From assembly GCF_900129725.1 (NCBI RefSeq), contig NZ_FQWQ01000003.1, positions 654,686 through 718,685 of the forward strand: a stretch of DNA of 64,000 nucleotides, written 5' to 3'. Positions 35,994 to 51,979 of the stretch are shown here, piece after piece. The notes beneath the pieces are model-generated. The model had not been told where the DNA came from and made no database searches. It saw only the letters and a program-made list of their open reading frames with translations. Every line of letters starts with the position of its first letter. Positions within the stretch are counted from its first letter, which is position 1. The DNA is from Chryseolinea serpens (GTDB lineage: Bacteria; Bacteroidota; Bacteroidia; Cytophagales; Cyclobacteriaceae). A program made the position numbers and the translations under genes.

Positions 35994-37745
35994 TTAAAGT
36001 TTGGGTGCGAACCACAAAAATCCAGCGGCCGCTACGAAGGCCAGGAAGAAATACAACGCCGGGAGCTCCTTCTGCACCAACACCGGCTCTCCACTTGAAT
36101 TGCTGGCGCTCGACACCAACTGATTTTGCTCGCGCTGTATATTTTGACGCAGCGAATTCCAACCTCCCTTTTCACTCACATAATAATGAAGCGAAGACGC
36201 GTCCGTTTGAAGCGAATGCCAGCCCGGTGTTCCTGCCCAGAACTGGCCATGCCACGCATCATCCAGCCGTTCGTCTTCCCGCAGCGGCAGCTGGGTTGTG
36301 TCGGCGAAAAGAGTTGGATTAGGTTGGGATGACAATAGGGTTGTTTGCAAGGGTTCGTCGATGTACCACGGAAAGGGGGTGGTGATTTGTATGGACGACG
36401 CCTGTGTTGCACGGCGTGACAATTTTTCGATCACGGGCGACCAAAATGCGCCATAGCCCACGGAGTCGCCGGATAAGGTGAGACGATAGGTTTCCTGGAG
36501 CAATTGAAATCCGAGTTTGCCCGCTCCGGAGAATGCATACCCGGTCAGTATGCCACTCTTGTTTTGCACGAGCGATTGGACGGTTGAATTATTTTGGAGG
36601 CGCACGGGCAACGCGGGCAATGTAACGGCTTTGTCTTGCAGGACGATGGTGGCGCTGTCCGTTTTTACCGGCGCGAGGGTGAAGGGGAAAAGACCGTCGC
36701 GTTTGGTTTTCGTGGCATGGGGCAGAATGAGGATACCGAGTCCCGAGTGAATGGATTCTTTCAGAATGTTCTTTTCGCCGGCGGTAAGTTTTTGTAAAGC
36801 GCCGTCATCGATGATGAGGAGATCGGTTTCGTCAAGCACATCGTGCGTCAGCCGGTTGACTTGGGTGGGTTGGCGGTTGGCGAATTCGAAGCGGAAGATC
36901 TTTTGGGAGAGTTGGTAGCGCAAGATGAGTTTGTGACCGGCATGCGCGAGGTAGCTCTTCAGGTATTGGGTTTCGAAGGTTGGAAAGTCCTGGATGAAGA
37001 GCAGGCGGAGGGGCGCGTCGGCCTCGACATAAACCGGAAGTTTTTCCGCTTGCCATTTTTCATCGCTGCCTTGTATGGCCAACGTGTACAACCATTCGCC
37101 CTTTTGCTTAGGTGTGAACGATAGGTGGAATGATTTTAGTCCTCGTCCCTCCATCAGCACCGAGTCTTCTTTTCCGTTGGGGCCGTTGATGACGATCCAT
37201 TTTTTTTCCGGCGTAGTATTGTAGAATGTTCCCTGGACCTGTGCCGGGTGATGCGCCAACACGGGCTGGACAACCGACAACGACATGATGCCGGCCGTGG
37301 GTTGGCTTGGGATGAAGGTGAACGTTTTGTTGTCGAGTAAATCGAGGTCAGTGGCCGGTAAGCCTTCTCCCGTCACAAACCGGATCTGGTCTCCTTTGAT
37401 GGGCAATTCGTGATCGGCAAGCAGGGACGATTTTTTGTAAGGATTTACTCCCGTTAGATGCCACAGCTGCAAGTCGGGATGATGTTGGAGGAGGCTATCG
37501 ACTTTCTGTTTCTCATACCCCGCTGTCAACAACAGGATGGATGAATTCTTTTCTGAGGTCACGACCGGTCGCAGGAACAAGCTTGCGGCCATCGCCATCA
37601 TCACGACCACGGCAATCCAGCGCAACACGAGAAAGCGTTGTTTGCGTTTCCACTCCAGCCACAAGAACAGCAGGGTTAACGGAACCAGCAGCGCGGCGAG
37701 GAGCGTGGGCGATACGAGTGCATGGAACGTGATCATGACTTTCAT
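35994..37745 (-). CDS. Membrane protein, last gene of the MoxR-DUF58 operon
   Basis: A 583-residue protein. Two hydrophobic segments near the N-terminus (LLAALLVPLTLLFLWLEW and WIAVVVMMAMAASLFL) and one at the C-terminus (ALYFFLAFVAAAGFLWF) bracket a large domain that should face the periplasm. Within it, ILLLTAGYEKQKVDSLLQ, LLFIQDFPTFETQYLKSYL and DLLIIDDGALQKLT look like glutamine-amidotransferase or von Willebrand-like alpha/beta units seen in BatA-type operons. The start at 37745 overlaps the upstream stop by 4 bases (ATGA); a longer N-terminus is unlikely. No enzyme motif is visible. Function unknown. Confidence 0.75.
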   Translation of the reverse strand: MKVMITFHALVSPTLLAALLVPLTLLFLWLEWKRKQRFLVLRWIAVVVMMAMAASLFLRPVVTSEKNSSILLLTAGYEKQKVDSLLQHHPDLQLWHLTGVNPYKKSSLLADHELPIKGDQIRFVTGEGLPATDLDLLDNKTFTFIPSQPTAGIMSLSVVQPVLAHHPAQVQGTFYNTTPEKKWIVINGPNGKEDSVLMEGRGLKSFHLSFTPKQKGEWLYTLAIQGSDEKWQAEKLPVYVEADAPLRLLFIQDFPTFETQYLKSYLAHAGHKLILRYQLSQKIFRFEFANRQPTQVNRLTHDVLDETDLLIIDDGALQKLTAGEKNILKESIHSGLGILILPHATKTKRDGLFPFTLAPVKTDSATIVLQDKAVTLPALPVRLQNNSTVQSLVQNKSGILTGYAFSGAGKLGFQLLQETYRLTLSGDSVGYGAFWSPVIEKLSRRATQASSIQITTPFPWYIDEPLQTTLLSSQPNPTLFADTTQLPLREDERLDDAWHGQFWAGTPGWHSLQTDASSLHYYVSEKGGWNSLRQNIQREQNQLVSSASNSSGEPVLVQKELPALYFFLAFVAAAGFLWFAPKL

Positions 37746-40009
37746 TTTTGCTTCAATGCCTCCATGCTCTTTAAGAAACGTTCGTCCAATGCGTGGACGG
37801 GCCGGGTGTGTGATTGGGGTGAGGCGGCCTCTTTGGGAAGCACCTGCCACAACGACGCCCGTATGGCTTCGATCGCGACGGGTTGCTGTGCAGGCTCGAT
37901 CTCGTTTTCAGAGAGTCTTTTCAATAACGACAAACTCTTGAGGTAACGGCCCGGCTGGGCAATGGCGACCACCGAGAGTTCCTGCCCTGCCTTGAGGAGA
38001 TCGTTTTTGATATCGGGTGTTATCGTCACCGTGCCAGATTGCAACATGTGCTCCAGCAGTGCCGCCGCCTTTCGAATATGCGGATAGGTTTCCGGTTTCG
38101 AACTGGATTTTTCGGCTGTGGCGTTTTTCAATTCGGTTAAATCGCCGGTCAATCGTTTTTCCTCTTTCAAAGGTGGTGGATCGAACCCGGTGCGATGAAC
38201 ATAGATGCGCGAATCCTGGCTGATCTCTTTCAGCAGTTTGAGCGCTTTGTACTGATACGGCAATGATTTTTCCGGATCGTAGAGACGCAGGTGCAGTTCG
38301 GCATCCCACATCACCGTGATGGCGGCTTTCAGTTTCGAGCGGATCGATTGGGCAAAGAAGGTGGCTTCGTCCTCACTGTCGTGGGCGTGGGTGTAGGCCT
38401 TCACGGGATCGTCCTTGTCGTCGCCACCGTGATCGTGGTGATCCTGGGCGGGCGCTGACTTTTTCTCCTCCACGAGGTTGTGTTCGTTTTCCGTGTCGTG
38501 CACGTGGCCATACTTTTTGGTCACATCTTCTTCGTGATCATCGTCACTGGGAAGGGCGGCCTGCGGACCGATGCCCGATTCAAATTCCTCACCCAAAAAT
38601 TCTCCATAGCGGAGACGGAGCACTTTCTGATCGTAGGCCAGGTCGTTGCTTCGGGAATTGAAGACTTCTTTCGTGATGTTCTTTTTTTCTTTCAGCAACT
38701 TCTCGCTGTCGATAATGATCTGGCGCTGGCTCCGGAAGTAGTCGGGCATGAGATCTACGCCCAGGCCCGGGTCGATGGACGTGGTTTGCTGTGTGGTGTC
38801 CTGGAGCGCGATAAAGAATGTTTCCGTGCGCGCCTTGTTGGGTTGGGGTGCTTTGTTATCGAGGGCTTCGACGTAGAAATACAATTCATCGCCGGGATCG
38901 AGTCCCAGTTTCACCAGGTCGATGGTGCGGTTGGCGCGCAGGGATTTGCCGGAAATCTTGCCGGGTTTGTCGAAACGCAATTTTTCCTCTCTGAATTTAA
39001 CGGACTCACCACTTCCTTTGCTGACCGTGGCAATGATGTAGGCGTCGTCGACCCGGTAATCGTCCGTCAAGGTGGATTGCAGGTTGATCTTTAAATTGTC
39101 GGTCAGGCTTAGGGTGATGAACTGATCCAGGTTTTCTATGGCGATGACGGGCGGCTGATCGCGGATGGTTTCAACAGTAAAATAGTCAGAGTACTTGGCG
39201 GTGCCGTCTGCATTTCTCCAGGCAATCTGATAGAAGGCTGTCTCCGAAAATTGTTTTTGTATGGAGAACTCGCCACTGGCGGTGTTGGAGAGTTTCACAC
39301 TGTCGTGCGTGGAGAAGATCATCTTGGCATCCAGTACTTTTTCAGTGAAAGCAATGTTCCACTGCACGTTGGTTCCTTCGGGTACGCGAAGATTGAACGT
39401 CTTCACGGTTTGCCTGGGAATTCCGGTATAGGAGGGCGGCGTGAAGGTGATGGCGGCGCTGCGAATGGCGGCCGGCAAAACTTCTTCGGTGGAGGGGCCG
39501 GCCTGCTCGTTGGAAGGAATTGCCGTTTCTCGCGATATTTTGTGTTTTCCGGCAAACCCCATCGACCCAAAGGAGATCAGCGCACTTAATGCAAAAATCA
39601 CCAGGGCTTGCAAAAGCTTGTGCGGAAGTTTTACAGAAGGGTAGAGGATCTCAAATTGACGGAGGCTTTTTATTTTTTGAAGTTGCTGCAAAGACGTGAG
39701 GTCGTCGTCTTTTTTTGTGAACAGGTCAGCGCTTTCTTCCAGTTGGGGATAATGCTGGTTCATATAGTGGATCACGCCGGCTTCCGAAATTTGCCAGAGG
39801 CCGAGTTGAATGCTTCGCACGATGAAGCAACTCAGGCCCGCGATGCCCGCCAACAGCCAGAGTCCGTATACGGAAAGAATAAACCAGTAGGCCACGGCGT
39901 AGGTGATCAATCCCGCAGCGAGGGCCAGCAACAAGGCTTCCGTCACACGGATCATGCGGTATTTCCGTTTCAGGCGAAGAAGATGATATCGTGCCTCCGT
40001 TGCGCTCAT
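37742..40009 (-). CDS. DUF4175-like membrane protein with His/Asp-rich segment
   Basis: A 755-residue protein. Two hydrophobic helices near the N-terminus (ALLLALAAGLITYAVAYWFI and LWLLAGIAGLSCFIVRSI) and a third around residues 130-150 precede a long periplasmic part. That part has Ig-like strands (ITFTPPSYTGIPRQTVKTF), as in DUF4175 proteins that accompany MoxR/DUF58 operons. Around residues 485-555 there is a strongly acidic and His-rich stretch with two similar copies, KYGHVHDTENEHN and AYTHAHDSEDEAT, and DHHDHGGDDKDD between them. The C-terminal 200 residues are helical. It overlaps the neighbouring genes by four bases on both sides. Confidence 0.8.
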   Translation of the reverse strand: MSATEARYHLLRLKRKYRMIRVTEALLLALAAGLITYAVAYWFILSVYGLWLLAGIAGLSCFIVRSIQLGLWQISEAGVIHYMNQHYPQLEESADLFTKKDDDLTSLQQLQKIKSLRQFEILYPSVKLPHKLLQALVIFALSALISFGSMGFAGKHKISRETAIPSNEQAGPSTEEVLPAAIRSAAITFTPPSYTGIPRQTVKTFNLRVPEGTNVQWNIAFTEKVLDAKMIFSTHDSVKLSNTASGEFSIQKQFSETAFYQIAWRNADGTAKYSDYFTVETIRDQPPVIAIENLDQFITLSLTDNLKINLQSTLTDDYRVDDAYIIATVSKGSGESVKFREEKLRFDKPGKISGKSLRANRTIDLVKLGLDPGDELYFYVEALDNKAPQPNKARTETFFIALQDTTQQTTSIDPGLGVDLMPDYFRSQRQIIIDSEKLLKEKKNITKEVFNSRSNDLAYDQKVLRLRYGEFLGEEFESGIGPQAALPSDDDHEEDVTKKYGHVHDTENEHNLVEEKKSAPAQDHHDHGGDDKDDPVKAYTHAHDSEDEATFFAQSIRSKLKAAITVMWDAELHLRLYDPEKSLPYQYKALKLLKEISQDSRIYVHRTGFDPPPLKEEKRLTGDLTELKNATAEKSSSKPETYPHIRKAAALLEHMLQSGTVTITPDIKNDLLKAGQELSVVAIAQPGRYLKSLSLLKRLSENEIEPAQQPVAIEAIRASLWQVLPKEAASPQSHTRPVHALDERFLKSMEALKQK

Positions 40010-41268
40010 TGATTTCGTTTAAAGGCCACCAGCCGTTCAGTTAATAACACCGCCATGAAAGCAAAGGCCAGTAGGGGGGAAGGATCATTTTGACCTGCCG
40101 GTATATCTGCCTGTAGTCCGCCCGTGGTGGCTTCGGTTGACCACTGTGCGATGTCGGGCAGGGCTCGCCGGTCAAATCCCGGATCGACTTCGGGTTTGAC
40201 AAGTATGATGTTGGCCAACTGCCAGGGAAGTTTTTCCTGAAGGGCGATCTCCTCGTTCAGTCGTTTTGTGATGATCCATGTTTCGGATCCCTCCTTACCC
40301 GGTTGACGCGATAGCAGTGGGCCAGATTCAACGCCGTTCGGTTTTAGAATGATTTGGCGATTGATCATTCCTTCTGGAATTTTTTCTGTGGAGAGCCAGA
40401 CAACCCAAGCGGTCTTCGGAGCTTGCGAAATATTTTCGGGTTTATAGTTTTTCCATTGAATGTGCGTTGGTATGGATCCTTTCAATGCCTCAAGAGAGGC
40501 TGTCAGGATCATCTGATCGTAAGCAAACACCTCATCACCCACAAAGGCCAGCGATACCGTGTCCGGCATGTTGATGCGAATGGAGTCTTTGCCCATGTGA
40601 AAGTACCCACCGCGTGGCGTGATTGCCTTTACCGTTTCAAAGTTCGTTTCTTGAGGGGTTGAGGTTCCTTTGCGAATCGAAAGAGAATCGCCAGCCAGCC
40701 TGACGGCTTGTATCGGGAACTCTATGGGTTCGGGCGCCGCGGTGATCCATCGTATGTTTGTGGGTAACGTCAGGCGTTTACCTTTAAATCCCGACACGTA
40801 ATTGTATGAAAGAACGACCACTTGCTGAAGCGATTTTCTTTTCAGCAGATCCACCGCCGACCAGTAGTCGAGTCGTTCTGTCTTTGCGCTGTCAAGGGAG
40901 GGGAAGCCTTTGGACAATTGCTTCAATTCATAGCCCTCTTTTTTTAGACTGTCGCTAAGCGAGGAAAAGCGGGCTTCATTGTCCAGGCCGGCTTCCACGA
41001 CCAGCCATTTCTTTTGATGACTGCCGGATGCGTTGAATTGCAACCCGCTTAAGAAGGATACCAGTAGCGCGATGGCCAGGCAGCGTAGCGCCAGCAACAA
41101 CATTTCGTTCAGCCGCAGGCTTCTGAATTGTTTGGTGGTGGAATCTTCCAGGTACCGGATGCTACCCATGCGCAACACCTTGCCTTCCTTTCGACTCAAC
41201 AAGTGGATGCCGATCGGGACGAGTAGCCCCGTCAACCCCCAAAGCCATATCGGGTGCGCGAACATCAT
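40006..41268 (-). CDS. BatA-type membrane protein with N-terminal double transmembrane domain
   Basis: A 420-residue protein. The N-terminus MMFAHPIWLWGLTGLLVPIGIHLLSRKEGK followed by a second helix LLLALRCLAIALLVSFL is the signature of the BatA/aerotolerance N-terminal domain (TIGR02226). A periplasmic region follows with no recognisable von Willebrand metal site, and a short C-terminal helix SPLLAFAFMAVLLTERLVAF closes it. It starts one base inside the DUF58 stop (TGATG) and its stop overlaps the DUF4175-like start. Confidence 0.85.
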   Translation of the reverse strand: MMFAHPIWLWGLTGLLVPIGIHLLSRKEGKVLRMGSIRYLEDSTTKQFRSLRLNEMLLLALRCLAIALLVSFLSGLQFNASGSHQKKWLVVEAGLDNEARFSSLSDSLKKEGYELKQLSKGFPSLDSAKTERLDYWSAVDLLKRKSLQQVVVLSYNYVSGFKGKRLTLPTNIRWITAAPEPIEFPIQAVRLAGDSLSIRKGTSTPQETNFETVKAITPRGGYFHMGKDSIRINMPDTVSLAFVGDEVFAYDQMILTASLEALKGSIPTHIQWKNYKPENISQAPKTAWVVWLSTEKIPEGMINRQIILKPNGVESGPLLSRQPGKEGSETWIITKRLNEEIALQEKLPWQLANIILVKPEVDPGFDRRALPDIAQWSTEATTGGLQADIPAGQNDPSPLLAFAFMAVLLTERLVAFKRNQ

Positions 41269-42164
41269 CAGCGGATCATGGATTTACGTACTTTTAGAAA
41301 ATCGCGCAACGTCTTTTCAAAGGGATCGCCCATGGAAACCAGTTGATAGCTGATATGCTTTTCCAACATCCACATGCGCGAGCGACGGATCCACTCTTTG
41401 ATGCGGGCCGTATATTGTTCTTGTTGCTGTGCAGTATCGACTTTTACCTGGGCACGGGTCTCCAGGTCTTCAAAGGTAAACGAACCTTCCTGGTCCAGTT
41501 CCATTTCGTGATGGCCCATCAGGTGAAAGACGATCACTTCGTTGCGGGGTGTTTTCAGGCGCGAGATGAAATGCAGGAGGTCTTCGCCATCGTCGTAGAG
41601 GTCCGTAAAGAAGATGATCAGTTCTTTGCCGTGGTGATCAAACAACTGTTCCAGTCCGTTGTCTTTCTTCCAGGTGCCTTCGCTTTTTATGTGGATCAGT
41701 GCATTGATAAAGCGGATGAATTGCTGTTGTTCAAAGCGCGGCTGCACGGTGTTGAGGATCTTATTGTTGACCGTATACAGCCCGAAGGTGTCGCTTTGTT
41801 TCCGGCAGAGATAGGCTAGCGCGGCGGCGAGAACGTTGGTATACTGAAGTTTGCTCACACCGGCCTCCGTATATGCCATCGAATGACTGGCGTCGATAAT
41901 AAACTTTACGGTGATGTTGGTCTCAATTTCCGCTTGCTTGATATAGTACCGTTCCGATCGCGCATACATCTTCCAATCGAGCTGTCGCAGATCGTCGCCG
42001 GGTTCATAGCTGCGGTATTGGCTAAACTCCTGACCCGCGCCAACGGCCTGGCTCTTGTTGCTCCCGCTCATAAATCCCTCCACGATGATCCGGGCCACCA
42101 GTTCGAGGCCGTTCACCGTGTTCAGGATCTCGGGTTTGAGCAAGTCTTTGATCTGCGGGTTCAC
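41268..42164 (-). CDS. DUF58 protein with intact MIDAS motif
   Basis: A 298-residue protein. QLDWKMYARS (residues 61-70) is the DUF58 hallmark, and FIIDASHSM (Asp91, Ser93, Ser95) is a complete DxSxS metal-ion-dependent adhesion motif of the von Willebrand A fold. It is cytoplasmic, with no membrane segment. DUF58 proteins work with MoxR ATPases, probably in assembling or maturing envelope complexes. The start codon is GTG at 42162-42164, 6 bases after the moxR stop. Confidence 0.9.
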   Translation of the reverse strand: MNPQIKDLLKPEILNTVNGLELVARIIVEGFMSGSNKSQAVGAGQEFSQYRSYEPGDDLRQLDWKMYARSERYYIKQAEIETNITVKFIIDASHSMAYTEAGVSKLQYTNVLAAALAYLCRKQSDTFGLYTVNNKILNTVQPRFEQQQFIRFINALIHIKSEGTWKKDNGLEQLFDHHGKELIIFFTDLYDDGEDLLHFISRLKTPRNEVIVFHLMGHHEMELDQEGSFTFEDLETRAQVKVDTAQQQEQYTARIKEWIRRSRMWMLEKHISYQLVSMGDPFEKTLRDFLKVRKSMIR

Positions 42165-42170
42165 GATTTT

Positions 42171-43184
42171 TTAGATTCGATTGCTTTTTATCGTCGCGAT
42201 GCTTTCAAACAATTTTGCCGTGACCTGGTCGGGTGTCACACCCTCCGCTTCGGCCTTGAAGTTCATCAGGATGCGATGGCGCAACACGGGGTAAGCCACC
42301 TTTTGAATATCTTCCATGGTGACGGCAAAGTTGCCGTGCAGCAACGCCCGCGCTTTGGCCGTCAAGATCATGGCTTGGCCGGCACGGGGACCTGCGCCCC
42401 AGCGAACCCACTCGTTCACGAATGCGACTTCGCTTTGTCCAGGGCGTGTGGCGCGAACGATCCGGCTGACAACGTCGATCAGGTCGGCGTTGATGTGCAC
42501 TTCACGAACCAGACGTTGCGCCTCTAATATCTTGCTTCCTTCAATTACTTTTTGAACGGGATTGCTTTTTCTTCCGGTGGTGCTTTCCAGGATGGCGCGC
42601 TCTTCTTCGGCAGTGGGATAGTTGATTCGCACGTAAAGTAAGAACCGGTCGAGCTGCGCTTCCGGCAACGGAAAAGTTCCGGCTTGTTCAATCGGGTTTT
42701 GCGTTGCCAATATGAAGAAGGGTCTTTCCAAGGGATAGGTGATGCCACCATAGGTCACCTCAAATTCCTGCATGGCTTCCAACAAGGCGGCTTGCGTCTT
42801 TGGTGACGTGCGGTTGATCTCGTCGGCCAGAATGATGTTGGAGAATATGGGACCTTTGTTGAATTTGAAAAAACGTTTTCCTGTAGTATGATCTTCTTCC
42901 AGGATCTCTGTACCGATGATGTCCGAAGGCATGAGATCAGGTGTGAATTGAATTCTTCTGAACTTCAAATCGATCGCATCCGACAGTGTGCGGATCATGA
43001 GGGTCTTTGCCAACCCGGGCACACCTTCCAGCAGTGCATGTCCGCCGGCGAGGAACGTGATCAGCAGCTGGTCGATGGTCTCTTCCTGGCCGACGATCAC
43101 TTTTCGTATTTCCTGCTTGAGGGCATTCAGCTTGCCGATGATCTCCTGTACGGCTTGCTCGGTGTTTTTCAGATCCTGGGTCAT
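42171..43184 (-). CDS. MoxR-family AAA+ ATPase
   Basis: A 337-residue AAA+ ATPase. Walker A GVPGLAKT (residues 54-61), Walker B ILADEINRTSPKTQAALLEAM, sensor 1 FILATQNPIEQ, and sensor 2 in the lid are present. MoxR ATPases act as chaperones for metal-cofactor or von Willebrand-domain proteins; the DUF58 partner directly downstream (6-base gap) is the usual client. It has the ATG at 43184 and lies 42 bases after the DUF4159 gene. Confidence 0.94.
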   Translation of the reverse strand: MTQDLKNTEQAVQEIIGKLNALKQEIRKVIVGQEETIDQLLITFLAGGHALLEGVPGLAKTLMIRTLSDAIDLKFRRIQFTPDLMPSDIIGTEILEEDHTTGKRFFKFNKGPIFSNIILADEINRTSPKTQAALLEAMQEFEVTYGGITYPLERPFFILATQNPIEQAGTFPLPEAQLDRFLLYVRINYPTAEEERAILESTTGRKSNPVQKVIEGSKILEAQRLVREVHINADLIDVVSRIVRATRPGQSEVAFVNEWVRWGAGPRAGQAMILTAKARALLHGNFAVTMEDIQKVAYPVLRHRILMNFKAEAEGVTPDQVTAKLFESIATIKSNRI

Positions 43185-43226: not shown

Positions 43227-43850
43227 TCAACGCATCATGGCATACATCACGATGTTCACGCTGAAACGCGTATTGTCAATTTTGTAAAATCGTTTGTTCC
43301 TGAAATCATAATCCCACTCGCAGCCATAGTCCTTGTTGCTATACAACACGCCGATCCGGCCATTGATCTCGATCGCTTTTAAATAATCGTGCACGATGTC
43401 GTCTCCCCAGCCATTCAACTCTTGCGAGGTGGTGGGCGGTCCGTCGAACTGAAAGAACATGGAATAGATCGGGTGATGATTCGGTATTTTCTTCAAGGCA
43501 TTGGCACCGAAGATCCGTTCCATTTGTCCTTCGAATGATTTTGAGAACAGACCGTCGATATCGTGGTTGCAGTCGTCGACAAAGACAAACCCACCCTGCC
43601 GTACATAGCGTTCAAAGTTCTCGCGTTCCTGCTGGGTGAACTCCACCAGCTTATGACCGCTCAGGTAACAGAAGGGACACTGAAAGATGTCGGTGCTGCT
43701 GAGGGGCACAATATTTTCCTGTGTGTCCACGGGCAGGGTCGTGTACTCGATGAGTGAGTTCAGCAAGTTGGCCGGCATGCGCTGATCAACATCCCAGTCG
43801 CCCGACTCATACTGCAGGCGTGTAAAGAAAAATTTGTTCGCGTCGCGCAT
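43227..43850 (-). CDS. DUF4159 protein heading the MoxR operon
   Basis: A 207-residue protein of DUF4159: FFFTRLQYESGDWDVD, FCYLSGHKLVEF and GGFVFVDDCNHD are the family motifs, suggesting a glutamine-amidotransferase-like or phosphoesterase-like alpha/beta fold. Many DUF4159 proteins carry a signal peptide, but I see none in the frame here. The frame is open further upstream to a TAA at 43899-43901, with a TTG at 43865. I chose the ATG at 43850 because it begins the conserved MRDANKFFF. It is the first gene of the operon that continues through MoxR. Confidence 0.82.
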   Translation of the reverse strand: MRDANKFFFTRLQYESGDWDVDQRMPANLLNSLIEYTTLPVDTQENIVPLSSTDIFQCPFCYLSGHKLVEFTQQERENFERYVRQGGFVFVDDCNHDIDGLFSKSFEGQMERIFGANALKKIPNHHPIYSMFFQFDGPPTTSQELNGWGDDIVHDYLKAIEINGRIGVLYSNKDYGCEWDYDFRNKRFYKIDNTRFSVNIVMYAMMR

Positions 43851-43969
43851 ACGATAATCGTGCAATTTGCGGTTTCTTTTGGCATCACCACCACGAAATT
43901 ATACAAGCGGGAACGGGGGGTCAGGGATCATACGGATCCATTTTTCCGAACACGATTTCGAGGGATATC

Positions 43970-44005
43970 AAAAGAAAAAAATCCCCGGCGTGGTGGCCGG
44001 GGATT
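43970..44005 (-). terminator. Intrinsic terminator of the second tldD-tldE pair
   Basis: A perfect 10-bp stem AATCCCCGGC/GCCGGGGATT (43980-43989 with 43996-44005), followed on the minus strand by TTTTTTCTTTT. It separates the TldD/TldE genes from the DUF4159-MoxR operon. Confidence 0.9.
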
Positions 44006-44026
44006 TGTCCATAAGCATAGAAGATA

Positions 44027-45361
44027 TTATACCGCGTCCGACAAACTCGAGAACGTGAAGTCCCGGATCTTCATGGGCGGAATGAGATAGTTCACGTTCG
44101 ACTCCACGCTCACCGTGCGCTCAACCTTACCCAGCTCTTCCAGGTTGTTCAGCATGATCACGGGGCTTTCGTTGAAGCGGAAGTTCTTGATGGGGAATTT
44201 GATCTCCCCATTCTCGATGTAGAACGTTCCATCGCGGGTTAACCCGGTTAGCAGGAGGGTCTGGGGATCAACGGGGCGGATATACCACAGGCGCGTTACC
44301 AGGATGCCTTTCTTGGTGCCTTTGATCAATTCCTCGAGGGATTTTGTTCCACCTTCCATGATCACTCCGTCGGGGCCGGGGATCGCTTTCACACCTTTCT
44401 TCTCGGCCCAGTAGCGGGAGTAAGTAAGATTTTTTATAACGCCCTTTTCGATCCAGCTCACTTTCTCCTGCGGTCTTCCATCGCCGGCCCAGGTGCTGGT
44501 GGGCAGCTCTGGGTTGAGCGGATCGGAATACATGTTCACACGCTCGTCCACCAGCTTTTCGCCAAGGCGGGTCTTGCCACCGGGTTGGCTGAGGAAGCTG
44601 CGGCCTTCGTCGGCCTGGCGTGCGTCGAGACCGAAGAAAATGTTTTCGAGCAGCACGGCGGCGGCTGCGGGCTCCAGGATCACGGTATACTTTCCGGGCT
44701 CAATGGCGCGGGCGGTCGCTGACTTCAAGCCTTTGTCGGCGGCGATCTGCGATGCCTTTTTCGTATCGAGTTTGGTGAAGTCATTGTAGCCGCGTGTTGC
44801 ATAGCCCGAACCTTTGCCATCTTCCGTGCGCATGGTGATGGAAAAGTTCACGCCGGTCGATGTGTTGTAAGCAAAAAGTCCCTTGCTGTTCATCATGGCG
44901 TTCATGGTGGTCGTGTCTTCCATGAAGCCGGCAGCGACTGTTTTTGTATCCTTGGCGACCTGCAGGCTTTGCGCCACGGCGTCGGCCCGTTGCTTGGGCG
45001 TGATGGCCGCGGTGGCCGGCACGAACATCACAGGCTCTGCATATTTTTGCGGCCCGAGGAAAGAAACAAATTCCGGATTTTCGGGTGCCAGCTTGGCCAA
45101 CTCTTCGGCGCGTCTGACAACTTTTTCCAGCGAAGCATCATCAAATTCGTTGATGGTAGCCACCCCGAGTTTCTTGCCATAGGCGGAAGAAACGACCAGT
45201 GTATTGGTACTGATGCCGCCACTGGTGGAGACCGAATTGCGTGCATACCGGATGTTACCCGTTATGGTGCCGGTGAGGTTGATCTCGCATTCGTCTGCTT
45301 TTGAATAGCTCAATACTTTTTTCAATAAAGCCTGAGCTTCGTCTTGTGTGAGTAGTGGCAT
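44027..45361 (-). CDS. TldE/PmbA-like metalloprotease subunit, copy 2
   Basis: A 444-residue non-catalytic TldE-type subunit of the TldD/PmbA family. Markers are CEINLTGTITGNIRYARNSV near the N-terminus, the VEPAAAAVLLE-type core (YTVILEPAAAAVLLENIF) and the C-terminal TGLTRDGTFYIENGEIKF with NFRFNESPVIMLNN. No HExxxH is present, as expected for TldE, and no signal peptide. It lies 3 bases after the Tat-signalled TldD at 47002, so they form a pair. In E. coli TldD/TldE is a heterodimeric protease for unfolded peptides such as microcin B17 precursor. Confidence 0.9.
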   Translation of the reverse strand: MPLLTQDEAQALLKKVLSYSKADECEINLTGTITGNIRYARNSVSTSGGISTNTLVVSSAYGKKLGVATINEFDDASLEKVVRRAEELAKLAPENPEFVSFLGPQKYAEPVMFVPATAAITPKQRADAVAQSLQVAKDTKTVAAGFMEDTTTMNAMMNSKGLFAYNTSTGVNFSITMRTEDGKGSGYATRGYNDFTKLDTKKASQIAADKGLKSATARAIEPGKYTVILEPAAAAVLLENIFFGLDARQADEGRSFLSQPGGKTRLGEKLVDERVNMYSDPLNPELPTSTWAGDGRPQEKVSWIEKGVIKNLTYSRYWAEKKGVKAIPGPDGVIMEGGTKSLEELIKGTKKGILVTRLWYIRPVDPQTLLLTGLTRDGTFYIENGEIKFPIKNFRFNESPVIMLNNLEELGKVERTVSVESNVNYLIPPMKIRDFTFSSLSDAV

Positions 45362-45364
45362 AGA

Positions 45365-47002
45365 TTATCCGATTTTACGTGATGTATTGATGACGTTAAC
45401 TCCGTTGAAGCGTGTCGTGGACGAGCCGTGCGACACCGCGCTAACCTGTTGAGGTTGTCCCTTTCCGTCAAAGAAAGATCCGCCCAGGCGATAGTCGCTC
45501 TGATCGGCAATGCCGACACACGAGTTCCAGAATTCCTGGGTGTTGGATTGATAGGCCACATCTTTCAATGCCCCCACGATCTTTCCATCCTTGATCTCAT
45601 AGTAAAGCTGTCCGCCAAACTGGAAGTTATACCGCTGCTGATCGATGGAGAACGATCCGTCGCCGATGATATAAATTCCTTTTTGAACACCTTTGATGAG
45701 GTCATCAATACTCTTCTTTTCCTTGCCGGGCTGTAGCGAGATGTTGGCCATGCGCTGGAACTGAACACTGCTCCAGTTGTCGGCATAGCAACAACCTTGT
45801 GAAGCAGGCAATCCCAAAATGTGCGCCTGGTCGCGGATCGCCTGGTAGCTCACGAGCGTGCCGTCTTTGATAACATCCCACTGACCGCACTTCACGCCTT
45901 CATCGTCATAGCCTACTGCGCCCAGTGAACCCACTTGGGTCTTGTCAGCCACGATGTTGACGAGCTTGCTGCCGTAGTTGAATTTTTTGGATTCCCATTT
46001 ATCCAGCGTCAGGAAGGACGTGCCGGCGAAGTTGGCTTCATAACCGAGCACGCGGTCCAATTCGGTCGGGTGACCTGTGGATTCGTGGATGGTGAGCCAC
46101 AAGTGTGAAGGATCGAGGATCAAATCATACTTGCCGGGCTCAACCGATTTTGCTTTGATCTTTTCGCCTGCTTGCTTGGCGCCAGCCTTGGCATCTTCCA
46201 GCATGTCGTAGCGACCTTTGTACAGCGTGGTCACGCCTTGAATTTTATCTTGCGGACGGGCATACAAATATTCATAGCCCATGCCCATGGGCGCACTCAA
46301 TGCATTGCGCGTCTCGAACTTTCCGGTGGCGGCATCGATCTTCGTGATGAAGAACGTGGGCCAGATGCGGTGAATGTCCTGGTCGATATAGGAACCATCG
46401 GAGGATGCGAAATACTTCTGTTCGTTCACCATAAAGAGGAACGAGTTGATGTAGTCGGCGCCGCCCTTCATGGCTTCAGCATTCACGCCCAACAGCAAGT
46501 CGACTTTTTCCTTGATGGGAACTTCGAAGGCATTTTTTTCGATGGGTGCTTTCCAGCTCACTTCGCCATAGCCTTTTTGAGGAGCGAGTTGAACCGGCTC
46601 TGTCAACAGGCGGGAGTTTTCTTTCGCGATGGCCACCGCCAGTTCTGCGGCTTTGGCAATGCTGTCTTTGTCCAGTTTGTCGGTGGCGGCAAAGCCCCAA
46701 CCGCCCTGGGCCACCACGCGAACGCCGAGGCCGTAGGATTCCGTGTTCACGATGTTTTGCACCTTGTCTTCACGGGTGATGACGAATTGATTGAGGTAGC
46801 GACCGATACGCACGTCGGTGTAGGTCGCTCCTTTGGCGCGGGCTGCGTTGAGCGCGACGTCGGCCATCTGCTTCTTCAGGGCCACGTCAACCGTTTCGAG
46901 CGCTCTTTCCGGGGCAATGGGGCGACCCATGCCGGGAATGGCCGATAACATGGCCGCTGTGGTGCCCATGCCGGTCAGGTAAAGGAAGTCTCTTCTTTTC
47001 AA
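45365..47002 (-). CDS. Tat-signalled TldD-type metalloprotease, copy 3
   Basis: A 545-residue TldD. The N-terminus MKRRDFLYLTGMGTTAAML is a twin-arginine signal. The zinc motif is LTIHESTGHPTELDR (HExxxH), with the third ligand Cys probably in FWNSCVG and the family end GKGQPQQVSAVSHG. The start codon is TTG (47000-47002), because no ATG lies upstream and the Tat motif begins there. It has its own upstream region after a terminator at 47131-47165, so this pair is a separate transcription unit from the first. Confidence 0.9.
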   Translation of the reverse strand: MKRRDFLYLTGMGTTAAMLSAIPGMGRPIAPERALETVDVALKKQMADVALNAARAKGATYTDVRIGRYLNQFVITREDKVQNIVNTESYGLGVRVVAQGGWGFAATDKLDKDSIAKAAELAVAIAKENSRLLTEPVQLAPQKGYGEVSWKAPIEKNAFEVPIKEKVDLLLGVNAEAMKGGADYINSFLFMVNEQKYFASSDGSYIDQDIHRIWPTFFITKIDAATGKFETRNALSAPMGMGYEYLYARPQDKIQGVTTLYKGRYDMLEDAKAGAKQAGEKIKAKSVEPGKYDLILDPSHLWLTIHESTGHPTELDRVLGYEANFAGTSFLTLDKWESKKFNYGSKLVNIVADKTQVGSLGAVGYDDEGVKCGQWDVIKDGTLVSYQAIRDQAHILGLPASQGCCYADNWSSVQFQRMANISLQPGKEKKSIDDLIKGVQKGIYIIGDGSFSIDQQRYNFQFGGQLYYEIKDGKIVGALKDVAYQSNTQEFWNSCVGIADQSDYRLGGSFFDGKGQPQQVSAVSHGSSTTRFNGVNVINTSRKIG

Positions 47003-47080
47003 AGTTTAAGGGTTTAGAGTTATTCGTTATGAGCTTTATCGAAAAGCAATATCCAAAAGTTTTGCAAAATTCAATCTTTT

Positions 47081-47090
47081 GGACCGGTCC
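47081..47090. promoter_or_regulatory. Perfect 10-bp palindrome upstream of tldD copy 3
   Basis: GGACCGGTCC, about 80 bases before the TTG start, in the short region that must hold the promoter of the second pair. Downstream on the minus strand GAATTTTG is one mismatch from TAnnTTTG. A regulator site is possible. Confidence 0.3.
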
Positions 47091-47130
47091 CCTTACAATT
47101 TTTTGTTTGGACAATACCTCAAAATCCGGT

Positions 47131-47165
47131 ATAAAAAGAAAATCCCTGACGATTATCAGGGATTT
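47131..47165 (-). terminator. Intrinsic terminator of the first TldD-TldD-TldE unit
   Basis: A perfect 10-bp stem AAATCCCTGA/TCAGGGATTT (47140-47149 with 47156-47165), followed on the minus strand by TTCTTTTTAT. Confidence 0.9.
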
Positions 47166-47184
47166 CTATCGAAGTACTAGATGA

Positions 47185-48528
47185 CTAAACAGCGTCCGAC
47201 AAGCTGGTGAACGTGAAGTCGCGCAGCTTCATGTAGGGGATGAGGAAGCTGGCCCCGCCCCCAGGACCACCGTCCACGTCAACCCTCACTTGCTTGCCCA
47301 ACGTCTCCACGTTGTTCAGCATGATGACGGGGCTTTCGTTGAAGCGGAAGTTCTTGATGGGATGCTTCACTTTACCATTCTCAACAAAGAACGTGGCGTC
47401 GCGTGTGAGGCCGGTATAAAGTTGAGTCTGGGGATCTACGGCACGGATATACCAGAAGCGTGTGACCAGGATACCTTTCTTGGTGTCTTTGATGAGATCC
47501 CCCAGCGAAGCGTTGCCGCCTTCCATAATGGCATTGCCGGGGAACGGCACAGGAGCAACATTTTTATTCGATGCCCAATAGCGGTCATAGAACATGTTGG
47601 CCACCGTTCCGTTTTTGATGATGTCCATTTTCTTACGCGCTTGTCCATCGCCCGACCAGGGAGAGGCAGGAACGTCGAGGTTGAAGGGATCGGTGTAGAT
47701 GGTTACACGCTCGTCCATGATCTTTTCACCCATCTTGGTCCCACCGCCTTTTTTGGCGAGGAAGCTGCGGCCTTCATCGGCCTGGCGTGCGTTCATGTTG
47801 AACAGCATGTTGCGGATCAATTCCGCAGAAGCGGCGGGCTCCAGGATCACGGTGTATTTTCCGGGCTCGATGGCTTTGGCCTGGCGTGATTGTAAAGCTT
47901 TGTCAATGGCAATGCGCGAGGCCTCGGCGGTGTCGAGTTTGTTCACGTCGTTGAAGCTGCGCGTCACCCAGCCTGAACCGGTGCCGTCGTTGCTGCGCAT
48001 GGTCACGGTGAAGTTCACGCCCGTGGATTGGTTGTAGGCAAACAATCCTTTCGTGTTCATCATCGATGCGAAGCTATAGTTGTCTTCGAGGAACCCTGCC
48101 GCGGTCACATCTTTTGCGATGGCTGGGTTGATGCTATTGGCTGCGGCTTGCGCGCGATATTCAGGGGTAATCTTCGCGGTGGATTCGAAATACGTTTTCG
48201 ATTCACCATAGGTTTGTTGCGGAAGCGGCTCCATAAACTCAGGGTTCTCCGGTGCCAGCTTGGCCAGTTCTTCCGAACGGCGCACCACTTTCTCCAGCGA
48301 CGCGTCATCAAATTCGTTGATCGTGGCCACGCCCGACTTCTTGCCGAAGTTGGATTGCACGATCAGTGTAACGTCGCTGTTCTCGCCTGCCGTGGAAACG
48401 CTGTTGCGGGCGTAGCGTATATTACCTCCGTTGGTACCGTTCAGGTTCACCTCGCAGGCGTCTGCTTTGGAAAAGGCGATCACCTTCTCCAATATTTTTT
48501 TCGATTCTTCTTTTGAAAATATAGCCAT
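47185..48528 (-). CDS. TldE/PmbA-like metalloprotease subunit, copy 1
   Basis: A 447-residue TldE-type protein very like copy 2: CEVNLNGTNGGNIRYARNSV, YTVILEPAASAELIRNML, TGLTRDATFFVENGKVKH and NFRFNESPVIMLNN. No HExxxH and no signal peptide (MAIFSKEESKKILEKVIAF). The C-terminus ends RDFTFTSLSDAV, nearly the same as in copy 2 (RDFTFSSLSDAV). It follows tldD copy 2 after 22 bases and ends the first unit. It is the only visible TldE partner for two upstream TldD genes. Confidence 0.9.
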   Translation of the reverse strand: MAIFSKEESKKILEKVIAFSKADACEVNLNGTNGGNIRYARNSVSTAGENSDVTLIVQSNFGKKSGVATINEFDDASLEKVVRRSEELAKLAPENPEFMEPLPQQTYGESKTYFESTAKITPEYRAQAAANSINPAIAKDVTAAGFLEDNYSFASMMNTKGLFAYNQSTGVNFTVTMRSNDGTGSGWVTRSFNDVNKLDTAEASRIAIDKALQSRQAKAIEPGKYTVILEPAASAELIRNMLFNMNARQADEGRSFLAKKGGGTKMGEKIMDERVTIYTDPFNLDVPASPWSGDGQARKKMDIIKNGTVANMFYDRYWASNKNVAPVPFPGNAIMEGGNASLGDLIKDTKKGILVTRFWYIRAVDPQTQLYTGLTRDATFFVENGKVKHPIKNFRFNESPVIMLNNVETLGKQVRVDVDGGPGGGASFLIPYMKLRDFTFTSLSDAV

Positions 48529-48550
48529 GATACTGTTGTTATAGGTTAGG

Positions 48551-50191
48551 TTAAAGAGTTCTTCCGGTATTGATCACATTCACGCCGTTGAAGCGGGCGG
48601 TTGCCGAGCCGTGCGACACAGCGTTCGACTGCGCGGGTTGCCCCTTGCCATCGTTGAAGGCCCCGTTCATACGGTAGTCGCGTTCGTCGCAAACCTGCGC
48701 GCACGAATTCCAGAACTCCTGCGTGTTGGATTGATAGGCCACGTCTTTCAACATGCCCGCGATCTTGCCGTTCTTGATCTCGAAGAACAACACACCGCCG
48801 AACTGGAAATTATACCGCTGCTGGTCGATCGAGAAAGATCCGTCCTTTACGATATAAATACCCTTCTCCACGCCCGCGATCATCTGGTCTGGGGTGAGTT
48901 GTGTCTTGCCGGGTTGTAGCGACACGTTGGCCATGCGCTGGAACTGCACATCGCGCCAGCTCTGCGAATAACAGCAGCCATGCGATTCGCCTTGCCCGAG
49001 AATGTGCACCTGGTCGCGGATGGCTTGATAGTTCACGAGGATGCCGTCCTTCACCAGGTCCCACTGCTTGGTCTTCACGCCTTCGTCGTCATAGCCTACG
49101 GCGCCGAGCGATCCGGGCTGAACTTTATCGGCCACAAAGTTCACGGCCTTGCTGCCGTATTGGAACGTCTTCGATTGCAATTTGTCCAGTGTGGCAAAGC
49201 TGGTTCCCGCATAGTTGGCTTCATACCCCAGCACGCGATCCAGCTCCAACGGGTGACCTACCGATTCGTGGATGGTGAGCCACAAATGTGAGGGCTCCAG
49301 CACGAGATCGTATTTTCCGGGCTCTACCGATTTTGCAGAAATCATCTGCTTGGCCTGCTCGGCAGCAAACGTAGCGTCTTCAACAATATCATACGACTTG
49401 TTGTAGAGGGTGATGCCTCCGGGGCCCTGGATCTTGTCCTGTGCCTTTCCATCCAGGTATTCATAGCCCATGCCCACGGGCGCGCTGAACGCAGAACGTG
49501 TCTTGAACTGGCCCGATGCCTTGTCGATCATCGTGACCTGGAAGTTGGGCCAGGTGCGGTGAATATCCTGGTCGATGTAGGAACCTTCGGTGGAGGCAAA
49601 ATATTTTTGCTCATTCACCAGGAACATGATGCTGTTGATAAAGTTGGCTCCTTTTTCCATCGCTTTCGCGTTGGCATTCAGCAGGAGGTCGGCCTTTTCT
49701 TTGATGGGAACCTCAAAGCCGTTTTTCTGGATCGGTGTTTTCCACGACACTTCGCCATAGCCTTTCTCGGCAGCGAGCTTCACAGGTTCTTTCTGGAATT
49801 TTGAATTCGCTTTCGCGATGGTTACCGCGCGTTCGGTGGCCTTCTTGATGCCATCGGGTGTCACCTCATTGGTGGCGGCAAAGCCCCAGGTGCCATTGGC
49901 AATGACACGGATGCCCACACCATAGGATTCGGTGTTGCGTACGCTCTGCACTTTGTTTTCACGGGTGATGACAAACTGGTTGAGGTAACGGCCGATGCGA
50001 ACGTCGGCATAGGTTGCTCCATTGGAGCGGGCCGTGTTAAGGCCTACATCCGCCAGGCGTTTTTTCTGCGAAACGTCCAGGCCGGGGACGAGCAGTTCCT
50101 CCGCGGTGATGGTGTTTGCCAGTGAAGACACGGGCAGCATCAGCGCGCCCGCGCCCATCCCGGCCAATTGAATAAAGTCTCTTCTTTTCAT
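48551..50191 (-). CDS. Tat-signalled TldD-type metalloprotease, copy 2
   Basis: A 546-residue TldD. The N-terminus MKRRDFIQLAGMGAGALML is a Tat signal followed by a hydrophobic stretch. The zinc motif is LTIHESVGHPLELDR, and FWNSCAQV with GKGQPAQSNAVSHG supply the rest of the site. RIGRYLNQFVITRENKV and YFASTEGSYIDQDIHR are conserved with the other two copies. It starts with ATG at 50189-50191, 11 bases after the stop of copy 1. Confidence 0.9.
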   Translation of the reverse strand: MKRRDFIQLAGMGAGALMLPVSSLANTITAEELLVPGLDVSQKKRLADVGLNTARSNGATYADVRIGRYLNQFVITRENKVQSVRNTESYGVGIRVIANGTWGFAATNEVTPDGIKKATERAVTIAKANSKFQKEPVKLAAEKGYGEVSWKTPIQKNGFEVPIKEKADLLLNANAKAMEKGANFINSIMFLVNEQKYFASTEGSYIDQDIHRTWPNFQVTMIDKASGQFKTRSAFSAPVGMGYEYLDGKAQDKIQGPGGITLYNKSYDIVEDATFAAEQAKQMISAKSVEPGKYDLVLEPSHLWLTIHESVGHPLELDRVLGYEANYAGTSFATLDKLQSKTFQYGSKAVNFVADKVQPGSLGAVGYDDEGVKTKQWDLVKDGILVNYQAIRDQVHILGQGESHGCCYSQSWRDVQFQRMANVSLQPGKTQLTPDQMIAGVEKGIYIVKDGSFSIDQQRYNFQFGGVLFFEIKNGKIAGMLKDVAYQSNTQEFWNSCAQVCDERDYRMNGAFNDGKGQPAQSNAVSHGSATARFNGVNVINTGRTL

Positions 50192-50202
50192 ACGTATGCC
50201 GG

Positions 50203-51843
50203 TTAAATGGTTCTTCCTGTATTGATCACATTGATGCCGTCGAAGCGCGACGTGGAGCTGCCGTGCGATACGGCGCTGACCTGCGAGGGCTGGCCTTTGC
50301 CGTCGAAAAACGATCCGAACAAGCGGTAATCTTTTTCGTCGCAGATCTTCGTGCAGCTGTTCCAGAACTCTTGCGTGTTGGATTGATAGGCCACATCGTT
50401 GAGCATGCCGGCGATGGCGCCGTTCTTGATCTCGTAAAATACGGTACCTCCGAATTGGAAATTATACCGCTGCTGGTCGATCGAGTAGGAGCCCCGTCCC
50501 GCGATGTAGATGCCCTTTTCCACATCCTTGATCATCTCGTTGATCGAATACGGGTCTTTGCCCGGCGCCAGCGAGATGTTAGCCATGCGTTGAAACTGAA
50601 CATCGCTCCAGCTCTGCGCATAGCAGCAACCGTGCGATTCGTTTTGTCCCAGGATATGCACCTGATCGCGGATCGCCTGATAGTTCACCAGGATGCCGTC
50701 CTTGATCAGATCCCAACGTTTGCACTGCACGCCTTCATCGTCATAGCCCACGGCGCCGAGCGAACCGGGCTGCACCTTGTCGGCAAAGATGTTGACAAGC
50801 TTGCTGCCATAGTTGAATTTGCCGGTCTTCCATTTGTCCAGTGTGGCGAAGCTGGTGCCGGCGTAGTTGGCTTCGTAGCCGAGCACGCGATCCAACTCCA
50901 ACGGGTGGCCTACCGATTCGTGGATGGTGAGGCCGAGGTGATTGGGTTCCAATACCACGCTGTATTTTCCGGGCTCCACCGATTTTGCCGTCAGCATTTC
51001 CTTGGCTTGCTTAGCGGCCAGGGTGGCATCTTCGATCATGTCGTAGCTATTCCGGTACAACATAACATCGGCAGGTCCGTGAAGTTTGTCGATCGCTTTC
51101 GGGATCATGTATTCATAGCCCATACCCATCGGTGCGCTCAACGCCTGACGGATCTTGAACGTACCGGAACCTTTGTCGACAGCGGTCACCGAGAAGGTGG
51201 GCCAGATGCGATGAATGTCCTGGTCGATGTAGGAACCTTCTGAGGAGGCGAAATATTTTTGTTCATTCACCTGGAAAAGGTTTGAGCTCACAAAGCTCGC
51301 GCCGTTCTGCTGGGCGGCGGCGTTGGTCTTGAGCAGCAGGTCTGCTTTTTCGGAAACCGGGACTTCGAAAGAATTTTTCTCGATCGGGGTTTTCCACGTC
51401 ACTTCGCCGTAGGATTTTACCGGAGCCAATTTCACGGGCTCCTTCTGGAATTTCGAATTTGCTTTCGCGATCGCTACCGCCTGTTGGGTGGCTTTTTTGA
51501 TGCCATCGGGTGTGACGGTGTTGGTGGAAGCAAAACCCCATGTGCCGTTCACGATCACGCGGATGCCCACGCCGAACGATTCGGTGTTTACGATGTTCTG
51601 TACTTTGTTTTCGCGCGTCGAGATAAATTGATTGAGGTAACGCCCGATCCGGATGTCAGCATAGGTGGCGCCCTGGGATTTGGCGGTGTTCAGGGCAACA
51701 TCGGCGAGTTGCTTTTTTTGCACCGCATCCAGGGGGACATCCAACAATGCTTCAACGGGAATGGGGTTGCCCATCAGGGGCACCGTCATCAGCATCCCGC
51801 CAATGCCGAGCCCGGCCAGTTGAACGAATTCTCTTCTTTTCAA
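50203..51843 (-). CDS. Tat-signalled TldD-type metalloprotease, copy 1
   Basis: A 546-residue TldD heading the array. The N-terminus MKRREFVQLAGLGIGGMLM is a Tat signal. The zinc motif is LTIHESVGHPLELDR; the third-ligand region is FWNSCTKI and GKGQPSQVSAVSHG. The start is TTG (51841-51843) immediately before the Tat motif, as in copy 3. The region upstream (51844-51905) should hold the promoter, but I found no good match to both boxes. Confidence 0.9.
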   Translation of the reverse strand: MKRREFVQLAGLGIGGMLMTVPLMGNPIPVEALLDVPLDAVQKKQLADVALNTAKSQGATYADIRIGRYLNQFISTRENKVQNIVNTESFGVGIRVIVNGTWGFASTNTVTPDGIKKATQQAVAIAKANSKFQKEPVKLAPVKSYGEVTWKTPIEKNSFEVPVSEKADLLLKTNAAAQQNGASFVSSNLFQVNEQKYFASSEGSYIDQDIHRIWPTFSVTAVDKGSGTFKIRQALSAPMGMGYEYMIPKAIDKLHGPADVMLYRNSYDMIEDATLAAKQAKEMLTAKSVEPGKYSVVLEPNHLGLTIHESVGHPLELDRVLGYEANYAGTSFATLDKWKTGKFNYGSKLVNIFADKVQPGSLGAVGYDDEGVQCKRWDLIKDGILVNYQAIRDQVHILGQNESHGCCYAQSWSDVQFQRMANISLAPGKDPYSINEMIKDVEKGIYIAGRGSYSIDQQRYNFQFGGTVFYEIKNGAIAGMLNDVAYQSNTQEFWNSCTKICDEKDYRLFGSFFDGKGQPSQVSAVSHGSSTSRFDGINVINTGRTI

Positions 51844-51905: not shown

Positions 51906-51935
51906 AACAAAAAAGGATACCTAAAAAGGTATCCT
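51906..51935 (-). terminator. Intrinsic terminator of the accB-accC unit
   Basis: A perfect 8-bp stem AGGATACC/GGTATCCT (51914-51921 with 51928-51935), followed on the minus strand by TTTTTTGTTT. It isolates accC from the TldD array downstream. Confidence 0.88.
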
Positions 51936-51979
51936 CTGTCAATAGATTATATGAGTGGTTATTCGCGGATCGCGCGTGC

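Follow-up and report, generated by a model that had tools for sequence, protein, structure and literature searches.

A TldD/TldE gene cluster with Tat-like signals on TldD in Chryseolinea serpens and its joint occurrence with a MoxR–DUF58–DUF4159 membrane module

The 64,000-nucleotide stretch of the Chryseolinea serpens genome analysed here (contig NZ_FQWQ01000003.1, positions 654,686 to 718,685; hereafter, the window) contains five genes of the TldD/TldE protease family, which are located next to genes of a membrane module represented by a DUF4159 protein, a MoxR-family ATPase, a DUF58 protein and three membrane proteins, namely, a BatA-like protein, P755 and P618. In the sampled genomes, TldD/TldE, the DUF4159 subtype of the window and P755 are gained and lost together; this association, as one unit, of TldD/TldE with a MoxR–VWA–DUF4159 membrane module is the larger finding of the analysis. 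The catalytic subunits (TldD) open with a segment resembling signals of the twin-arginine translocation (Tat) pathway, and the partner subunits (TldE) carry no signal. From the gene content, the conservation of the signal and of catalytic residues, and joint presence and absence in genomes, which were observed directly, we infer that a TldD–TldE heterodimer exported by Tat and acting outside the cytoplasm is probably the envelope arm of a MoxR–VWA membrane system.

Joint presence and absence of TldD/TldE and the module

Of 146 genomes of the order, 43 contained a match; TldD/TldE loci were collected from these, from 29 further genomes of a phylum sample of 296 genomes, and from the best 80 named loci; plasmid records were used for a view beyond the phylum. 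In four of the 42 matching phylum genomes (G246, G264, G318 and G348) the PF01523 match was weak and partial, and these were left out. Typing with profiles built from the window, with open reading frames (ORFs) below 40 bits excluded, assigned 450 ORFs in 167 loci, namely 245 TldD and 205 TldE; the short loci L087–L110, covered by longer stretches where these were fetched, were not typed. The TldD lineage of the window is designated lineage A, and the Bacteroidales-type TldD lineage B. Genome G403 was assigned to lineage A from two cut fragments.

In the order, the DUF4159 subtype (E ≤ 1e-25) and P755 (E ≤ 1e-60) were each found in 43 of 146 genomes, and each set coincides exactly with that of the 43 TldD/TldE genomes. 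In the P755 scan, 14 of 57 genomes with weak matches only (about 1e-11 to 1e-16, in ORFs of about 1100–1240 amino acids) were not counted. P618 (E ≤ 1e-5) is present in 37 genomes, all within the 43, and its non-detection in G033, G068, G085, G114, G135 and G136 may reflect either absence or fast divergence. In some genomes (G004, G039 and G042) TldD/TldE and parts of the module lie far apart, yet are present together. Within each of the genera g2, g3 and g4, which belong to the window's family, some genomes have TldD/TldE and the module and others lack them, so the carriers do not form a single ancient clade.

In the phylum sample, the DUF4159 subtype (E ≤ 1e-40) was found in 25 of the 296 genomes, which are exactly the 25 with close lineage-A TldD, defined as a full-length TldD of at least 802 bits, G403 being judged from its fragments. 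The general Pfam model for DUF4159 is non-discriminating, with matches in 130 of 146 order genomes and 214 of 296 phylum genomes; the window subtype alone discriminates. A second, higher-scoring DUF4159 gene is located in the host genome far from TldD/TldE (G000:C10:1323247-1323816), and one subtype match contains a single in-frame stop (G279:C8:431318-431947). A DUF4159 gene of Gemmatirosa was accompanied by no TldD in the 24 kb read, and the phage collection contained no DUF4159 match.

Clustering of neighbouring ORFs showed which families recur beside TldD/TldE: DUF4159 (90 loci), MoxR (84), DUF58 (70) and BatA-like (55). Among the 128 lineage-A loci with at least 600 nucleotides of room, DUF4159 is the next same-strand module gene in 89, at a median distance of 141 nucleotides; it adjoins TldD/TldE in none of the 10 lineage-B loci. 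The order of genes in the 90 loci showing the module is always consistent with DUF4159–MoxR–DUF58–BatA–P755, as far as each locus extends, and 66 loci show no module gene within their available DNA. An earlier sequence-only reading of the window had proposed export of folded TldD–TldE pairs through Tat and had overlooked this co-occurring membrane module.

The Tat-like signal of TldD and its unsignalled partner

Within the window, only 5 of 1426 possible start codons give an N-terminus with RR-x-hydrophobic residues followed by a hydrophobic stretch, and three of these five are the starts of TldD1, TldD2 and TldD3 (D1–D3). The sequence-only reading had described an MKRR(D/E)F opening on all three and no signal on either TldE; this holds in the form (M/L)KRR(D/E)F, followed by a G/A-rich stretch that is only weakly hydrophobic. 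Among 241 complete distinct TldD, 229 carry RR, nine carry RK and three carry neither. Of the latter, one begins at a contig edge (L156), another looks frame-damaged (L182), and the third is a truly unsignalled lineage-B protein (L135, genome G364). Signal scoring was limited to TldD with a match starting no later than profile position 12, which excluded one protein in the order set. RR was found in all 86 scorable TldD N-termini of the order, none of the 43 TldD genomes containing an unsignalled copy; the N-termini from the other 29 phylum genomes comprise 32 RR, nine RK and one unsignalled. The unsignalled lineage-B TldD of G364 (L135, L136) is the only clear case among the typed Bacteroidota. 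Some RK copies accompany an RR copy in the same genome.

Of 233 lineage-A TldD, 232 have their start codon at the same place, two residues ahead of RR; it is ATG in 127, TTG in 95 and GTG in 11. Because the codon at this position alternates between the three, the placement of the start is secure. The constancy of this position supports the starts of D1 and D3 (TTG) and of D2 (ATG) as real. In an alignment of 97 TldD, positions M1, R3, R4 and F6 are invariant, and most of the following thirty columns are variable. TatC is encoded in the host genome and in all 43 TldD/TldE genomes of the order, which is weak evidence because TatC is present in 136 of the 146 order genomes; it was also found in nine of nine checked genomes, including six with RK TldD.

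The curated general Tat model TIGR01409 recognized the signals of the window copies only weakly: D2 and D3 scored 15.1 and 12.2 bits, below the cut-off of 16.7, and D1 was unlisted. The same model matched none of 46 TldE. As evidence on the signal, we give more weight to the conservation of the motif than to these short curated models.

TldE starts at a conserved ATG without a signal, mostly as MAI-like N-termini, in 194 of 196 lineage-A ORFs, and the hydrophobic stretches flagged upstream in some TldE frames precede this start. For lineage-B TldE, the automatic count missed most N-termini, and these were assessed by eye. The C-terminus of TldE is SLSDAV or SLSDAI in 175 of the 196 lineage-A ORFs, some of the others being cut. 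A survey of signalled TldD alongside unsignalled TldE found both subunits in each of the 43 TldD genomes of the order. Of the 29 further phylum genomes, 28 likewise have both, the exception being G403, in which TldD lies on contig ends.

Among the 167 loci, the runs of genes are DE in 99, DDEDE in 22 and DEDE in 14, and only two (ED and EDEDE) begin with E; the gap between D and E has a median of 32 nucleotides (188 adjacent pairs). Divergence of D and of E is correlated (r = 0.91 over 169 pairs), and in two-unit loci D and E assignments are concordant in 164 of 197 informative comparisons, both values being inflated by shared descent. TTG or GTG starts are used by 106 of 233 lineage-A TldD versus 2 of 196 TldE and may thus keep TldD limiting and TldE in excess, which would suit a scheme where exported TldD already holds TldE.

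Since every scorable TldD in the order genomes is signalled, cytoplasmic TldE would have no TldD partner except the precursor. Putative co-export of TldE on TldD offers the simplest account of these data and is well supported by comparison. The sequence-only proposal is supported in part: throughout the Bacteroidota sampled, D tends to carry a Tat-like signal and E does not, the 43 genomes of the order contain no unsignalled D, D nearly always precedes E, and E. coli TldD needs TldE for its activity.

Organization of the locus and the active site of TldD

Coordinates of the five ORFs read from the sequence as three TldD and two TldE were borne out, and all five proteins contain PmbA/TldD domains 1, 2 and 3 above Pfam cut-offs. 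A profile search of the 8.36 Mb host genome with PF01523 matched these five genes only. The genes are arranged head to tail on the minus strand (Table 1). Identity to D1 is 73% for D2 and 68% for D3, and E2 is 62% identical to E1; among the matches listed, the best named ones for D1 come from Cytophagales-type Bacteroidota, for example Flammeovirgaceae UBA5585 (85%) and Ohtaekwangia koreensis (84%). Spacing within units is 3 to 22 nucleotides, and the E1–D3 gap of 182 nucleotides contains a terminator-like hairpin which, together with that 3′ of E2, gives the D-D-E and D-E units described earlier. A hairpin scan of the whole window gave 17 hairpins versus 13.8 ± 3.6 in shuffled sequences; since the overall count is near the shuffled level, only the three long stems of 11–12 pairs are regarded as convincing terminator-like hairpins. 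Inspection of the short ORFs in the two gaps of the cluster revealed no convincing gene for a peptide substrate or precursor, in agreement with the earlier reading.

Table 1. Positions of the TldD/TldE genes, module genes and terminator-like hairpins in the window
Feature	Positions	Strand	Characteristics
Terminator-like hairpin before D1	51912..51937	-	hairpin scan
TldD1 (D1), catalytic subunit	50203..51843	-	TTG start; Tat-like signal LKRREF...; HESVGH; Asp514 in DGKGQP
TldD2 (D2), catalytic subunit	48551..50191	-	ATG start; Tat-like signal MKRRDF...; HESVGH
TldE1 (E1), non-catalytic partner	47185..48528	-	without signal
Terminator-like hairpin closing the D-D-E unit, between E1 and D3	47139..47166	-	hairpin scan
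TldD3 (D3), catalytic subunit	45365..47002	-	TTG start; Tat-like signal LKRRDF...; HESTGH
TldE2 (E2), non-catalytic partner	44027..45361	-	without signal
Terminator-like hairpin 3′ of TldE2	43979..44006	-	hairpin scan
DUF4159 protein, TldD-linked subtype	43227..43865	-	no signal or membrane segment by hydropathy
MoxR-family AAA+ ATPase (AAA_3)	42171..43184	-	profile match
DUF58/VWA-like protein	41268..42164	-	profile match; DASHS, a DxSxS-type motif, from sequence
BatA-like membrane protein	40006..41268	-	three hydrophobic segments; about 320 amino acids predicted periplasmic
P755, membrane-anchored, no known family	37742..40009	-	about 600 amino acids predicted periplasmic
P618, membrane protein, no known family	35994..37850	-	about 500 amino acids predicted periplasmic; true start may be internal to the listed ORF

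The module genes 3′ of E2 are closely spaced or overlapping. The topology of the BatA-like protein, P755 and P618 was derived from hydropathy and positive-inside reasoning; MoxR, DUF58 and DUF4159 appear to be cytoplasmic. The BatA-like protein contains a BatA N-terminus. Models for VWA and TPR proteins gave no match to P755 or P618, and a search of the following genes revealed neither a BatB-type VWA protein nor a TPR protein.

The HExxxH motif is present in all three TldD and, as noted in the sequence-only reading, absent from E1 and E2; its residues H262, E263 and H267 are invariant in the alignment with E. coli TldD. In D1, Asp514 takes the place of E. coli Cys454. The MAFFT alignment offsets the E. 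coli C-G-K by two columns, but the motif itself matches D-G-K-G-(Q/E)-P. Asp occupies this position in 226 of 228 lineage-A TldD; of the other two, L141 has Cys and one has a gap. The NSC cysteine, taken earlier as the catalytic site, is a different residue, Cys497, which is merely conserved (218 of 228 aligned lineage-A TldD). The metal ligand set is likely HESxGH together with Asp514, as judged from the alignment. Asp is named as a natural substitute for Cys454 in the discussion of PMC5810440; membership in the TldD/TldE family therefore stands despite the missing cysteine. Adaptation to an oxidizing compartment was considered as an explanation of the change from Cys to Asp and rejected as at best a tendency, since signalled lineage-B TldD and L141 keep Cys.

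An AlphaFold2 model of D1 was built from the 97-row alignment, which consists of the three window copies and 94 sequences hand-picked from 112 listed relatives. Its pLDDT (predicted local distance difference test) is 84.9, with residues 1–23 below 50, and its best structural match is E. coli TldD; a model from the three window copies alone had a pLDDT of 33.9 and was discarded. The model supports the fold and is no test of the ligand, because it holds no metal and residues 514–521 are of low confidence.

Beyond the phylum, lineage-A-like TldD relatives without an N-terminal RR segment are encoded in Nonomuraea and Burkholderia stagnalis; by eye, both have C-G-K-G-(Q/E)-P at the ligand site and no NSC cysteine. 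In B. stagnalis (L232:222-11465), the unsignalled TldD/TldE pair is located 3′ of genes for a TonB-dependent receptor and a dipeptide ABC importer, which suggests cytoplasmic digestion of imported peptides.

Alternative explanations and comparison with known systems

Several observations weigh against an exported TldD–TldE pair working with the module. RK stands in place of RR in nine TldD (loci L112, L114, L115, L117, L120, L121 and L124), Tat profiles match few TldD at E ≤ 0.1 (TIGR01409, 8 of 46; PF10518, 5 of 46), and no conserved AxA cleavage site was found in the aligned N-termini, which often have x-x-G or A around residues 23–26. A terminator-like hairpin separates TldE2 from the DUF4159 gene, 39 of the 128 lineage-A loci with room have no DUF4159 next door, and nine lineage-B and four divergent lineage-A genomes (535–640 bits) lack the DUF4159 subtype. 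According to PMC5810440, E. coli TldD and TldE can each homodimerize, as seen by ultracentrifugation, and a TldD homodimer from Sulfolobus was reported active. Because lineage B, except G364, and divergent lineage A have Tat-type TldD without the subtype, the signal, and with it putative export, appears independent of the module. The divergent lineage-A TldD (L122, L131, L134 and L141) are all signalled and come from genomes without the subtype; that of L141 has Cys in the metal-ligand motif.

The capacity to form homodimers, and the lack of a signal of its own in TldE, would fit export of TldD alone as a periplasmic homodimer, with TldE remaining behind in the cytoplasm, where it would form an inactive homodimer and serve some other purpose. 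We consider this unlikely: proteolysis in E. coli requires both subunits, the heterodimer is preferred and the TldD homodimer was too unstable to purify (PMC5810440), and the co-presence of D and E throughout the order and in nearly all further phylum genomes likewise speaks for a pair. The scores of the window copies, which lie below the cut-off of the curated Tat models, the minority of relatives matched, the RK copies (9 of 241) and the lack of a clear AxA site could instead mean that the RR segment does not serve export, being an uncleaved membrane anchor or a chance resemblance, and that D–E works on the cytoplasmic side. This, too, seems improbable in view of the invariant RR and F amid mostly variable surroundings, the start fixed two residues before RR, the weak hydrophobicity of the segment and its disorder in the D1 model, the presence of TatC in all 43 genomes, and the existence of relatives without the segment in Nonomuraea and B. 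stagnalis.

It is very unlikely that D–E matures or degrades a specific secreted peptide resembling a RiPP (ribosomally synthesized and post-translationally modified peptide), with the MoxR neighbours incidental. E. coli TldD/TldE does remove the leader of microcin B17 (PMC5810440), and the proteins are named in recent papers on peptide products; however, the two gaps hold no convincing precursor gene, the recurring neighbours are MoxR–DUF58–DUF4159 genes, and the 43/43/43 match between genome sets is not incidental.

With co-export of TldE on TldD as the preferred reading, TldD would fold and bind metal in the cytoplasm, through the two histidines of HESxGH and, by homology, Asp514; it would pair there with signal-less TldE, and the folded pair would leave through Tat on the signal of TldD alone. 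In the periplasm, the pair may trim unfolded or extended N-termini within its hollow shell, and the three D and two E copies of the window could build several such enzymes. The cytoplasmic MoxR ATPase, with its DUF58/VWA partner and DUF4159, would be linked to the BatA-like protein, P755 and P618, whose large predicted periplasmic domains exported TldD/TldE would face. MoxR–DUF58 might help the metalloprotease to mature before export, a maturation role being attributed to other MoxR–VWA pairs; alternatively, the membrane part might load, feed or control TldD/TldE outside. A role in envelope quality control or peptide trimming is favoured.

More tentatively, these parts may form a transmembrane proteolytic system, in which a MoxR–DUF58–DUF4159 engine acts via the three membrane proteins on exported TldD/TldE, ATP inside driving trimming or quality control outside; among Bacteroidota such a system would be gained and lost whole, and Gammaproteobacteria may have it too. 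To our knowledge, the general role of the widespread TldD/TldE beyond microcin and cofactor maturation is unknown, as are the clients of most MoxR–VWA systems, and the one-to-one genome association makes the two questions testable together.

A literature search covering few subscription papers found no publication on TldD/TldE with a Tat signal, on DUF4159, or describing a TldD/TldE–MoxR module, and none of the titles retrieved for TldD, periplasm and Bacteroidetes was on this subject. In Stenotrophomonas maltophilia, PMC7688217 describes a 'not-yet-characterized operon' (NIPOLPBK_01784-01792) with two TldD, a MoxR-like ATPase, a membrane protein, a putative protease and three hypothetical proteins, downregulated in all isolates; likened by description only, its gene content is similar, in another phylum. 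In the Bat operon (PMC11834572), the genes for MoxR, DUF58 and a BatA-type membrane protein adjoin one another, as they do in the window, where DUF4159, P755, P618 and TldD/TldE stand in place of VWA BatB and TPR proteins.

E. coli TldD/TldE (PmbA; PDB 5NJ5 and related) has the same three domains and fold, HExxxH in D only and a signal-less E. It differs in that the genes for its two subunits lie far apart (3.39 and 4.46 Mb), TldD is unsignalled and Cys454 stands where the window has Asp514; tandem copies and the MoxR module are found on the window side. Lineage-B TldD, for example, that of Parabacteroides distasonis, annotated as 'metallopeptidase TldD-related protein', carries an RR signal (MNINRRDFIKTGG) and is followed directly by signal-less TldE. 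Lineage B differs in HEAIGH, a Cys ligand (TCGK), about 24% identity to D1 and the lack of an adjacent DUF4159 gene. In Tat hitchhiker complexes, such as hydrogenase-2, formate dehydrogenase and PaoABC, among others, a single Tat-signalled subunit carries its partner. The one-signal arrangement of TldD/TldE is alike, and, if co-export holds, the window would present a proteolytic case of it, with an inactive paralogue of the carrier as passenger.

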